Assembly: GCA_030591445.1 (NCBI GenBank)
Contig: JAUVBB010000009.1
Location: 1-36,427, forward strand
From: Deltaproteobacteria bacterium
GTDB lineage: Bacteria; Myxococcota; B64-G9
Direction: 5' to 3'
Length of the DNA: 36,427 nucleotides
In this document: piece after piece, positions 17,266 to 30,749 of the stretch
Numbering within the stretch: the stretch's first letter is position 1
Layout of the letters: every line of letters begins with the position of its first letter
Made by a program: the position numbers and the translations under genes
Notes under the pieces: model-generated
What the model saw: the letters and a program-made list of their open reading frames with translations, nothing else
What the model was told of the DNA's origin: nothing
The model's database searches: none

Positions 17266-17856
17266 ATGGAAGCCAAAGGTGAAATAACTCCTGATCCCGA
17301 TGCCGAGCTAATGCTTCGGGTGCGAGATGGCGACCAAAGGTGTTTTCAAGACTTGTTCGTACGACACTCGCCGGCCTTAGTCGGCTTCGTAGATCGGTTC
17401 TTTCGCAATCGGGCTGTGGCCGAAGAAGTGGTGCAGGAGGTGTTTCTGAAGGTATATCGGGCTCGCAAAAGCTACCAAATACGTTCAAAATTCACGACTT
17501 GGCTCTATACCATCGCCACCCGCACCTGCTACAACGAACTGCGCCGCGGAGTTCACCGGGCCAAATTCCAGGCACTGGAGGAGAGCTCCCCCAAACAGGT
17601 GCGCCCGGTTGAATCTTCGGCCCAGCAAGACTTGGAAGCTCGGCGCCTGGCTGAACTGGTAGACCGCACTCTGCAAAGCTTACCCGAAAACCAAAGGTCT
17701 GCCTTCATGCTAGTTCGCTTTGGCGGCCGATCTTATGCGGAAGTGGCCGAAATATTGGATCTTGGCCTATCCGCGGTAAAGTCACTGGTTTTTCGTGCCA
17801 CCGATGCCGTACGCAAGGCCCTTGAGGCCAACGACGAAGTGGAGAAGGAAAAATGA
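17266..17856 (+). CDS. ECF-type RNA polymerase sigma factor
   Basis: A sigma-70 family ECF sigma factor of 196 residues. Region 2 spans roughly residues 25-95: DLFVRHSPALVGFVDRFF, AEEVVQEVFLKVYRARKSY and FTTWLYTIATRTCYNELRR. Region 4 spans about 130-185: TLQSLPENQRSAFMLVRFGG, YAEVAEILDLGLSAVKSLVF. It directs transcription of an envelope or stress regulon whose members are not visible here. Its stop overlaps the start of the anti-sigma gene as ATGA, the usual coupling that fixes the ratio of the two proteins. The upstream 40 bases contain no clear promoter, so transcription may begin before or within the barrel gene. Confidence 0.93.
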   Translation: MEAKGEITPDPDAELMLRVRDGDQRCFQDLFVRHSPALVGFVDRFFRNRAVAEEVVQEVFLKVYRARKSYQIRSKFTTWLYTIATRTCYNELRRGVHRAKFQALEESSPKQVRPVESSAQQDLEARRLAELVDRTLQSLPENQRSAFMLVRFGGRSYAEVAEILDLGLSAVKSLVFRATDAVRKALEANDEVEKEK

Positions 17857-23713: not shown

Positions 23714-23749
23714 AAAAAAGGCTATGCCGAAGCAAAGCCTTTGTTTTTT
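23714..23749 (-). terminator. Intrinsic terminator, symmetric (works on either strand)
   Basis: The stem AAAGGCT (23717-23723) pairs with AGCCTTT (23736-23742), and an inner TGC-CGAA-GCA hairpin extends it past an A-A mismatch. T-runs follow on both strands (GTTTTTT on +, CTTTTTTC on -). No + strand gene ends nearby. On the minus strand it would end a transcript carrying the structured tRNA-like region at 23755-23935. Confidence 0.75.
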
Positions 23750-23754
23750 GTTTC

Positions 23755-23935
23755 GGCGTGCCCAGACAGCCGCGGGGTGCGAACCCCGACGGCGGTCCAG
23801 GTAGCCCACTGAGCTAGGTAGCGTAGAATGTTTTCATTCACGCTACGTTTACTCAGGTTTGTTCAACCATCGCCCACACCGCAAAGCGGCGGTGCACGAC
23901 GCTTGAATTACTGAAGCGTACTTACCTGACTTCAT
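23755..23935 (-). ncRNA. Candidate structured RNA with tRNA-like remnant
   Basis: Read on the minus strand, this stretch contains in order ACGCTT/AAGCGT and CCGC/GCGG stem-loops and a 12-bp hairpin with one bulge (GTAGCGT-GAATG-AAAA-CATTC-ACGCTAC, 23818-23846). Then come the tRNA-type A-box TAGCTCAGTGGG, about 19 bases, the T-arm GGGGTTCGCACCCC, and the terminator at 23714-23749. Relative to a tRNA, the anticodon arm is missing and the two acceptor sides do not pair, so it is not a functional tRNA. It may be a tRNA fragment left by an integration event or a small RNA. No expression evidence is available. Confidence 0.35.
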
Positions 23936-24568
23936 TCCAAGTCCATCCCCAAAAGTTGTCTGATTTAACTTTTTCTTGGTTCCCATGTGGTCATCTACTC
24001 TCATGCTGAAAATCGTTGGCAACGTACGAACGAGACAAACCTGTCGCAAGAATCAGACCAAATTGTGTAATTTATTTTGGTCAATATTAACAGCTAGTTA
24101 CAAAATGACAGAAATTTCAAGTGTTGCCAATAGGAGTCAATTTTTCAGTGGAAAATTCTAGAAACTATATTTATTGTGATTTTATAATGACTTACATGGT
24201 GCTGATCTAAAAGCTACACTTGTAAATTAATGAGGTGCTGGATTTGAGCACTTACAGCTTCAGCTGTTTCCTCAAATAGTACCTTTGGGCTGAAAACTCA
24301 GAACTGTTTCTTTAGGGTTACATGATAGTTTTAAGTGAGACATTTGCGTAACTAGCGGTAAATATAGTGCATAACAATATGGACCTTGGCTTTTCCGTAA
24401 ATATTGTAACCCTGGGGATACTGCATAGAAGGCTAGTGATTTGGATAAGTTATGGTAATAACGCGGTAAGTCAGTATTTTCTTGCTTGGTACGAGACTTG
24501 CTAGAACAGGGGCGAACTGACACACGAGGCGAAGCATGAGCGAAGTCGGGCCAAATGGAGAAATGACT
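23936..24568. other. AT-rich intergenic stretch with a nested hairpin
   Basis: From about 24040 to 24530 the base composition is clearly AT-rich compared with the GC-rich neighbours, and no credible gene is present. A nested stem-loop lies at 24242-24277: outer stem ATTTGAG/CTCAAAT, inner stem ACAGC/GCTGT with loop TTCA. It could be a regulatory leader of the nuclease gene or foreign DNA. Two small frames overlapping 23849-24161 have no support. Confidence 0.5.
24242..24277. repeat. Nested stem-loop in AT-rich DNA
   Basis: ATTTGAG (24242-24248) pairs with CTCAAAT (24271-24277), enclosing ACAGC-TTCA-GCTGT (24254-24267), with small internal loops of 5 and 3 bases. No T-run follows, so it is not a typical terminator. 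Confidence 0.6.
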
Positions 24569-28254: not shown

Positions 28255-29370
28255 TCAGTGGCAGGGGATATGAACAGAAATTCTGGTGTGCTGTCCGTCG
28301 GGACCGTCATTTACCCGGATGAATCCGCCATGGCCGTCGACGATGTTCAATGATATCGGCAAACCGAGGCCGGTGCCGTTTTCCTTGGTGGAGAAAAAGA
28401 AATCAAATATCCGCTCGCGCAGATCTTCCGGGATGCCGGGGCCGCTATCGGTGATGTCGATAACCCAATAGCCTTTGTTGCCCAATTCTTCTCCATGAAG
28501 GTCAATCCGGACATCGCCGCCGTCCGGCATCACGTCCATGGCATTGATGATCAGGTTAACCAGCACCTGCATGAGTTGGTCCCGGTCTCCTTGGATGCTG
28601 GCCTCGGGCACCGCGCAAGTTGCTTCCATCTGGATGTGTTTCTTTTTTGCCTGCGTCTCCATCAGACCCACCACGTGATGGAGGAGATCGCATAAGTCCA
28701 TTTGCCGCTTCAGGAATTTTCCGGGGCGGGCGAAACCTAGAAATTGGTCGAGAGTCTTGGACAGGCGCTTGAGTTCCTTCTGTTGAATTTCGACCAGCTT
28801 GCGGCGCGGGGAATCTTCGGCTATCTCGTCGGCAATCGCTTCGGCCGCACCTTTGATTGAGGCGATGGGATTCTTGAGTTCATGGGCAATGCCCGCGGTC
28901 AGTTCTCCCAGGGCCTTGAGTTTCCCGGCGCGAATTAATTGTTCCTCGAGAAGCTTCTTCTCTTCAATGGTCTCTTTGAGCTGCTTTGCGATCAATTCCT
29001 GGCGGTGCCTTTCTTTTTGCTCTCTCTCGGCCAAAACGCCGGTGATTAACGCAATAATGTTGTAGAGAAGCATTTCCAGTATTTTTTCGATGGATGCGCC
29101 GGGGTCACGCTCGAAGAAGTAAGTAAAAGCATGGGGCAGGTAGACGAGTGAGGCGACAATGGATGCGCCCAAACTACCTTTCAGCCCGAACTGGAATGCG
29201 CCCAGCACAATGGGGATGTAGTAGAGTCTTCTGAATATGTCGTGGAGCCAATGGTGCTTCGCGCCGGTGAAGTAATGGAAAAATGTAACCAGGGCAATGG
29301 GTAGCCATAAGATCAACAAAGCCCGCCAGGAAAGAAACCAAGGCAACTTGGTCCTTTCGGCTTGGGTCAT
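28255..29370 (-). CDS. Membrane sensor histidine kinase of a metal-efflux operon
   Basis: A 371-residue kinase. The N-terminal ~115 residues have about three to four membrane helices (ALLILWLPIALVTFFHYF, YYIPIVLGAFQFGLKGSLGA, ILEMLLYNIIALITGVLA) with no large periplasmic domain. A coiled coil follows (REQKERHRQELIAKQLKETI). The H-box is at His163 in LTAGIAHELKNPIASIKG, the N-box is NLIINAMDVMPDGG and the G-boxes are DITDSGPGIPEDLRERIFDF and NGTGLGLPIS, an NtrB/ZraS-type arrangement. The start overlaps the response regulator stop by four bases, so the two are translated together. Since metal-efflux genes are upstream on the same strand, copper or silver is the likely signal, though membrane-embedded sensing here has no recognised metal ligands. 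Confidence 0.9.
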   Translation of the reverse strand: MTQAERTKLPWFLSWRALLILWLPIALVTFFHYFTGAKHHWLHDIFRRLYYIPIVLGAFQFGLKGSLGASIVASLVYLPHAFTYFFERDPGASIEKILEMLLYNIIALITGVLAEREQKERHRQELIAKQLKETIEEKKLLEEQLIRAGKLKALGELTAGIAHELKNPIASIKGAAEAIADEIAEDSPRRKLVEIQQKELKRLSKTLDQFLGFARPGKFLKRQMDLCDLLHHVVGLMETQAKKKHIQMEATCAVPEASIQGDRDQLMQVLVNLIINAMDVMPDGGDVRIDLHGEELGNKGYWVIDITDSGPGIPEDLRERIFDFFFSTKENGTGLGLPISLNIVDGHGGFIRVNDGPDGQHTRISVHIPCH

Positions 29371-30749
29371 GTACCCGTCTCCTGATTCTTCTTCATGGCT
29401 ATCTGGTACTTTTCAATTCGATACAGAAGAATATGCCGCTGTATGCGCAGAAATCTGGCCGTCTTGGATTGGTTGAAGTCGTTTTTTTTCAGAGCGGCGA
29501 CAATGATTTGGCGCTCTAGTTCGTCCAAGGATATTCCTTCGGCCGGAATCTTGAAGATCAGTTCGCGGTCTCCGCTGACGGCATGAATAGCCGGCAAGGT
29601 CATGGACGCCGGCAGCAACTCGGCCCGCAGTTCGTCGCCATTGGACAGCAGTGCCAGCCTTTGGCAGGCGTTTTCAAGTTCGCGCACATTGCCCGGCCAG
29701 GAGTACGACTCCAGGGCGTCCAATAACTCTTTGCCCAGACGGGTTGGTTTTCCTTTGGCGTACTTGGTAAGAAAATGATCGGCCAACAACACGATGTCTC
29801 CTTGCCGCTCACGGAGCGGAGGGAGATCAATGGGAACGACATTCAAGCGGAAATAGAGATCTTCGCGGAAAGAACCGTTCTCAATCGCCTGTTCAAGGTT
29901 GCGGTTGGTGGCGGAAATGATTCTTAGGTCAATCTCAAGGGACTTATCTCCACCCACGATATCGACCTTCTGTTCCTGCAAGACCCGCAGCAAGCGGGGT
30001 TGCAAGTCTGCGGGTAAGGCGCCGATCTCGTCCAGAAAAATGGTTCCGCCGTCGGCCTGTTGGAATTTGCCTTTGCGATCGCGGGTCGCGCCCGTGAAGG
30101 CTCCTTTCACGTGCCCGAACAATTCGCTTTCGAGTAGTTCCTTGGGAATCGCGGCACAGTTGATCGGAACGAAGGGGCCGGATGCGCGTTCGCTTTTGAG
30201 ATGAATCCGCTTGGCGACAATTTCCTTGCCGGTGCCACTCTCTCCGCGCAACAAAACACTGGCATCGGATGCGGCCACCCGATCGGCGAGATTGACCAGT
30301 TTCTCCATCACCTCGGATTGGTAGATAATCTTGCCGGTTTCCGATGGTCTCATCGATTCGTACTTTTCGACTTTTTCCTTAAGCACGATGTATTCGACTG
30401 CCTTCTGGAGCACCATTCTGACATGATCGCGGCTGGTCGGCTTGGGGATGAAATCGAAAGCTCCCGTTTTCATCGCCGTCACCGCCGTCTCGATGTCACC
30501 AAAGGCGGTAATCACAATGACAATGGTGGCCGGCGCCCGCTTGTGGATTTCTTGTAATAGGGAAAGCCCGTCCATCTTGGGCATCTTCAGATCGGTCAAA
30601 ACCAGAGGGCAGGGCTGCTTCTGAAACTGCGCCAAGCCTGCTTTGCCGTCGACCGCGGTGTCTACTTCAAAGCCCTCTTCGTTGAGCTGGAAGCGCATGA
30701 CTTCACGGAAACTTTCGTCATCGTCGACGAGCAGTATGCGGGGTTTCAT
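29367..30749 (-). CDS. Sigma-54-dependent response regulator (NtrC/ZraR type)
   Basis: A 460-residue activator of sigma-54 promoters. The receiver domain has ILLVDDDE and the phosphorylated Asp53 (VLTDLKMPKMDG), with Lys103 in FDFIPKPTS. The AAA+ domain has Walker A GESGTGKE (169-176), GAFTGA at 216-221 for contact with sigma-54, GGTIFLDEIG (Walker B) and PGNVRELENACQRL. A Fis-type helix-turn-helix ends the protein (ALKKNDFNQSKTARFLRIQR). AAGGAGGG eight bases before the ATG is the ribosome binding site. It follows the DUF3347 gene by 42 bases. It should activate the cus-like operon or another sigma-54 promoter, but no such site could be found inside the window. Confidence 0.95.
   Translation of the reverse strand: MKPRILLVDDDESFREVMRFQLNEEGFEVDTAVDGKAGLAQFQKQPCPLVLTDLKMPKMDGLSLLQEIHKRAPATIVIVITAFGDIETAVTAMKTGAFDFIPKPTSRDHVRMVLQKAVEYIVLKEKVEKYESMRPSETGKIIYQSEVMEKLVNLADRVAASDASVLLRGESGTGKEIVAKRIHLKSERASGPFVPINCAAIPKELLESELFGHVKGAFTGATRDRKGKFQQADGGTIFLDEIGALPADLQPRLLRVLQEQKVDIVGGDKSLEIDLRIISATNRNLEQAIENGSFREDLYFRLNVVPIDLPPLRERQGDIVLLADHFLTKYAKGKPTRLGKELLDALESYSWPGNVRELENACQRLALLSNGDELRAELLPASMTLPAIHAVSGDRELIFKIPAEGISLDELERQIIVAALKKNDFNQSKTARFLRIQRHILLYRIEKYQIAMKKNQETGT

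Follow-up and report, generated by a model that had tools for sequence, protein, structure and literature searches.

The minus strand of the window, the whole stretch of 36,427 nucleotides analysed here, carries from about 24140 to 23714 what is probably a paralogue of a short sigma-54-dependent peptide gene with a structured 3′ region, and this reading is considered likely. The gene order would be upstream element, GG-N10-GC promoter, leader, tiny peptide ORF, three-hairpin 3′ region and intrinsic terminator, with a transcript of about 320 nt. A promoter motif, an ORF family, hairpins and an association with an exporter can all be read from the sequence, and on this basis the gene is predicted to be transcribed and its product translated, cleaved and exported. 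It would belong to a set of about 20 secreted-peptide precursors with the leader M-K-x-K-T/S-x-V/I-K/R-A-G and a variable core behind it. The only C39-peptidase ABC transporter of the genome, on contig C454, probably cleaves and exports them. A second copy, on contig C292, has both peptide and RNA tail intact; the window copy seems to have lost the peptide recently but retains promoter and RNA fold, so that its present product would be a strongly structured RNA without coding function. For the hairpin tail, the most likely role is to stabilise or regulate the transcript, with action in trans as a possibility. The original prediction, of a small structured RNA with tRNA-like features at 23714-23935, covered too short an interval and overlooked the sigma-54 promoter and the peptide ORF; what it observed is partly confirmed and its interpretation partly supported. 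The features of the unit are collected in Table 1.

Table 1. Features of the unit and the gene downstream of it, in the direction of predicted transcription
Feature	Position in window	Strand	Remarks
Conserved upstream element TTGACTCCTATTGGCAACACTTGAA	24116-24140	(-)	Candidate enhancer (UAS) for a sigma-54 activator
Sigma-54-type promoter TTTGGTCTGATTCTTGC (GG-N10-GC)	24046-24062	(-)	Identical in the C292 copy
Peptide ORF remnant	23922-23986	(-)	ATGGGAACCAAG/-1/AAAGTTAAATCAGACAACTTTTGGGGATGG..., by alignment to the C292 ORF MKAKTEVKSGNFWGWTY
SL1 hairpin	23907-23862	(-)	88% identity with C292; outer two pairs altered on both sides, pairing kept
SL2 hairpin	23857-23807	(-)	Base CTGAG/CTCAG; contains the reported "A-box" TAGCTCAG
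SL3 hairpin	23806-23755	(-)	Contains the reported "T-arm" GGGGTTCGCACCCC; hairpin retained in C292, TTCG loop not
Intrinsic terminator AAGGCTTTGCTTCGGCATAGCCTTTTTT	23742-23714	(-)	Hairpin 23742-23717 plus T run
Downstream gene	23644-23066	(-)	TIGR02265

The folded region and its paralogue

The hairpin region of the minus strand (23714-23935) has a minimum free energy (MFE) of -101.8 kcal/mol, compared with -70.0 ± 4.7 for shuffled sequences (z -6.8; 0/200 shuffles), and excluding the terminator gives z -7.2. The series of hairpins and the intrinsic terminator proposed originally are thus both confirmed. In the source genome (6.86 Mb, 610 contigs) there is one further RNA copy, on C292, which when folded separately gives the same SL1-SL2-SL3-terminator layout with z -5.8 with the terminator and -4.4 without it; 46 of the 70 mapped pairs of the window MFE structure are also present in the independent C292 structure. 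Significant folding in two independently folding paralogues, together with the conserved helices, supports the description of the region as a small structured RNA.

Conservation between the two copies is uneven, with identities of 95% in the promoter, 51% in the transcript leader, 76% in the ORF and 48% in the linker, and of 100% in the strands of the SL2 base, 34% in the SL2 apex, 65% in SL3 and 86% in the terminator, whose stem carries a T-A to A-T swap. Pairing in the SL2 apical arm is retained in both copies with three double changes. A 40-pair consensus, which was fitted to both copies, keeps all its pairs and includes 6 two-sided changes, against 0-1 in slid controls. In the MFE structure of the window itself, 29 pairs are changed and 14 of these are still canonical (8/11 two-sided, 6/18 one-sided). 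Such evidence from two sequences is suggestive, not proof, and covariation is thin because there are only two RNA copies in anything searched. An exact-pattern scan of 84,980 species genomes, from which near relatives of the source genome were perhaps left out, returned 78 loci with the SL1 core, all judged to be chance, with at most one carrying any of three flanking motifs and with covariance scores of ≤14.4 bits. Blastn in 97 genomes and a covariance model (R1) in 195 genomes of the phylum found the RNA in its own genome only. As for a repeat or mobile element, an identity that was considered and rejected, the genome holds just two copies and an exact-pattern search of IMG/VR found none.

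The A-box-like string TAGCTCAGTGG and the GGGG-TTCG-CACCCC hairpin are both present, and TAGCTCAG and GGGGTTCGCACCCC occur in the right order for a tRNA. However, the A-box corresponds to the 3′ side of the helix at the base of SL2, and TAGCTCAG is conserved in the paralogue because CTGAG and CTCAG form the SL2 base in both copies. C292 has GGGGACAATTTTCTCTCC where the window has the TTCG loop, so a T-loop TTCRA or D-loop conserved in homologues is not seen in this sole paralogue. These two observations led us to drop the tRNA reading. ARAGORN called 0 tRNA or tmRNA genes in the region, and the Rfam search gave only chance-level matches: none reached the gathering score, and relaxing the threshold to E ≤ 10 still brought up no tRNA family. 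The likeness to tRNAs and tRNA-like structures is thus one of short A-box-like and T-arm-like strings in an RNA that has no D- or anticodon arm, has no model match and does not conserve those strings as tRNA features. The AT-rich flank is indeed present upstream, as promoter and upstream element rather than as an integration scar; the window proteins that were scanned included no integrase, and both copies have their own promoter and terminator. It is consequently extremely improbable that the region is what integration left of a tRNA, or that the RNA mimics the tRNA elbow, and a conserved tRNA-like role of the window RNA is refuted.

The promoter and the broken peptide ORF

The promoter has the GG-N10-GC signature of a sigma-54-dependent gene, and transcription would start near 24034 on the minus strand. 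With at most one mismatch, the pattern of the promoter core occurs at 31 sites genome-wide compared with 3 for a reversed control. The upstream element TTGACTCCTnTnnGCAACACTTGAA lies ~55 bp upstream of TTTGGTCTGATTCTTGC in both the window and the C292 copies, and within 3 mismatches it has only three sites in the genome (C440, C292 and C78). At each of them a sigma-54-type promoter comes ~55 nt further on, and after it a peptide ORF or its remnant; the element was found in none of 9 other genomes. C78, the site additional to the window and C292, has the tiny ORF MKVQTKVRAGQDWKD after its sigma-54 site. This arrangement suggests that the element may act as an enhancer. The C78 peptide gene is adjoined by an ORF that by eye is a group II intron-type reverse transcriptase (L087, 1-780). 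The window also encodes an NtrC-type sigma-54 activator with its histidine kinase (29367-30749 and 28255-29370, both on the minus strand), which need not control the TTTGGTCTGATTCTTGC promoter, and an ECF-type sigma factor (17266-17856, plus strand).

In C292 an intact ORF lies between promoter and hairpins and reads MKAKTEVKSG followed by NFWGWTY. Frame 0 of the window remnant reads MGTKKKLNQTT.. and the homologous frame reads VKSDNFWGWTWNEVR up to a stop codon; the lesions are a one-base deletion in an A run, a Gly-to-Asp change at cleavage position -1 and a weak RBS. A -1 slippage on AAG-AAA-AAG, giving MGTKKKVKSDNFWGWTWNEVR, would restore the homologous frame and length, but there is no canonical tandem slippery heptamer (G AAA AAG), the RBS is weak and Asp replaces the cleavage Gly in the slipped frame, so that continued expression of the window ORF by this route seems very improbable. 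In the frame shared by the two copies 5 of 10 codons differ, 4 of the 5 synonymously. Since the differences are mostly synonymous, most of the divergence would have arisen while both copies were coding and the loss of the peptide would be recent, which implies in turn that the RNA fold was kept as part of a peptide-coding transcript.

The recent loss of the peptide also agrees with the main alternative to the peptide-gene reading, that the window copy is a passive pseudogene with a dead ORF, whose hairpins are a functionless 3′ UTR and terminator not yet eroded; that only two copies are known and that other family members do without the RNA point the same way. Passive sequence is not expected, however, to keep the SL2 apical arm paired in both copies at 34% identity, or to hold SL1 at 88% when leader and linker have drifted to about 50%, and this alternative is considered unlikely. 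The preferred reading, a duplicate of a peptide gene with a structured 3′ region, leaves room for a further step in which the window copy has become a stand-alone, trans-acting sRNA that is sigma-54-dependent and no longer needs the peptide. The promoter (95%) and the helix strands (88-100%) are conserved while the ORF is broken, the window fold is more stable than that of C292, and the architecture resembles that of Pxr from Myxococcus, which has been described with a predicted sigma-54 promoter, an enhancer region and three stem loops (PMC5684412). Against this, the mostly synonymous ORF substitutions mean that conservation of the RNA may reflect constraint from the time when the peptide was intact, and a stand-alone sRNA is therefore entertained as a possibility only.

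A family of tiny peptide ORFs and its probable exporter

Inspection of the promoter-core sites exposed further tiny ORFs of the same kind, and about 20 of them, with the form MKxK[TS]x[VI]K[AS]G plus a variable tail, are scattered over the genome (for example MKAKTEVKSGNFWGWTY, MKTKTTVKAGVNPLTTLTGETIDLENWA, MKTKTEIKCGDWKDRR and MKIKTQIKAGMDDPDGSAQHVTKNN). The degenerate pattern MKxK[TS]x[VI]K[ASC]G, built from this genome, is found in it at 16 places with at most one mismatch and at a few more with two; at one mismatch it is absent from reversed controls of the same genome and from the 23 nearest genomes. The codons of the family vary at third positions, which the pattern left free, so that only the degree of this variation is informative. 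A sigma-54-like site lies 65-94 nt ahead of eleven of the 20 ORFs, against an expectation of 0.38, and four others (L123, L130, L132 and L134, on C266, C561, C72 and C155) have an ECF-like promoter, GAAACGAT-N15-GTAT, in place of it. Nine members scanned from this genome gave no NCBIfam match and no Pfam match above cut-off, and the leader strings tried were not found printed in the literature searched. The R1 model, run with filters off over 15 other loci of the family, found nothing convincing (best match at an ORF L122, E 0.9); since other members lack the RNA tail, the RNA is not needed for the peptide.

The peptide cores seem to diversify partly via frameshifts. TTTTGGGGATGGAC is common to the window (~23960-23940), C292 (L126) and C276 (L124) in different reading frames, ATGGACGATCCTGA (MDDPD) is common to C276 (L124) and C561 (L135), and the core DWKD(RR) occurs in three otherwise separate peptide genes (L120, L121 and L136, on C78, C203 and C76). 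The Trp-rich FWGWTW prompted the idea of a trp-type attenuator, which was discarded since the unit has a terminator of its own at its end and the cores of other family members are unrelated.

When the 195 phylum genomes were searched without allowing mismatches, 12 genomes besides the source proved to share this N-terminus, in many cases as tandem arrays (for example MKIKTKVRGGPRGCGPGGISIYYEL). A C39-peptidase ABC transporter is flanked by those arrays that were inspected, and in genome G104 it is accompanied by HlyD and outer-membrane partners. The source genome has exactly one C39 peptidase domain (PF03412), in an HlyD - C39-ABC - ABC operon on C454 that lies 7.6 kb from one peptide ORF and whose exporter is 43-44% identical to those beside the tandem arrays. 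When the N-terminal part of the C454 protein was searched against the 195 genomes, close homologues (E ≤ 1e-80) were found in 23, comprising 13 of the 13 genomes with ORFs and 10 of the 182 without (Fisher 1.8e-14, uncorrected for shared ancestry). In each of the 13, the exporter gene and an ORF lie 1.4-7.6 kb apart, always within 8 kb. The exporter was not used in finding the ORFs, and the association therefore independently supports them as exporter substrates. In three large phylum-mate genomes (G159, G171 and G163), L177, L178 and L181 are tandem precursors with cores PRGCGPGGIS[IY].., flanking a C39-ABC exporter on both sides at L177; they are possible RiPPs, and no modifying enzyme was seen among the few neighbouring ORFs scanned.

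The family ORFs are probably precursors of the double-glycine type with a leader of 10 residues. Known recognition by C39 domains depends on hydrophobic residues at -4, -7 and -12, ahead of GG, GA or GS (PMC10885120). The family leaders end instead in AG in most members of this genome, also in SG or CG, and in GG in many members of other genomes; the Gly at -1 is invariant, except for the Asp of the window copy. Position -4 is V/I, -7 is K/Q, and a leader of only 10 residues has no -12 position. With the double-glycine peptides of peptidase-containing exporters (PCATs; ComAB, LahT, RtgAB and NHLM-type operons) the family shares a leader ending in Gly, V/I at -4, a variable core and multiple precursors per exporter, and as in NHLM systems the C39-ABC protein has an HlyD partner and a second ABC protein. 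It differs in the short leader, in K at -7, in the usual A-G ending and in precursors that are mostly scattered and in many cases sigma-54 driven; the score of the exporter falls far short of the NHLM equivalog cut-offs. A functional likeness to PCAT peptides is kept even though the strict leader motif is absent.

Relation to known regulatory RNAs and significance

Pxr of Myxococcus xanthus, an sRNA with paralogous copies in some myxobacteria (PMC5684412, PMC5568312), appears to be the nearest known architecture. The window unit shares with it a sigma-54 promoter, a candidate enhancer and three stem loops, a likeness in architecture only and compared by description, and it differs in having a paralogue that carries a peptide ORF. 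R1 had no match outside its own genome in the 195 phylum genomes, among which the presence of Pxr carriers is inferred. The model name (Mxa) of the downstream gene points to a Myxococcus family. The window RNA probably forms a structured 3′ end and may by now act independently, with some resemblance to Pxr.

SgrS/SgrT and RNAIII combine a short peptide ORF and a structured regulatory RNA on one transcript. The C292 gene likewise joins a short ORF to a structured RNA, as in dual-function and 3′-UTR-derived sRNAs, but of its two copies only one still has the ORF.

Recognition of double-glycine peptides usually relies on a longer leader that carries a known motif, and both gene callers and such leader screens would miss precursors 15-35 residues long whose leader has 10 residues. 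A scattered sigma-54-controlled set tied to one exporter would be a testable system of peptide signalling or competition. Taken at its fullest, and put forward tentatively as a rather doubtful whole, the picture is of a myxobacterium-like organism with a lineage-specific bank of about 20 scattered short-C39-leader peptide genes under sigma-54, a second group being ECF-like, of which at least one has a conserved structured 3′ RNA and one duplicate has turned into a free regulatory RNA. The window and C292 pair would offer a before-and-after comparison for regulatory RNAs arising from peptide genes and, if the picture is true, a peptide gene would have been caught turning into an sRNA gene.
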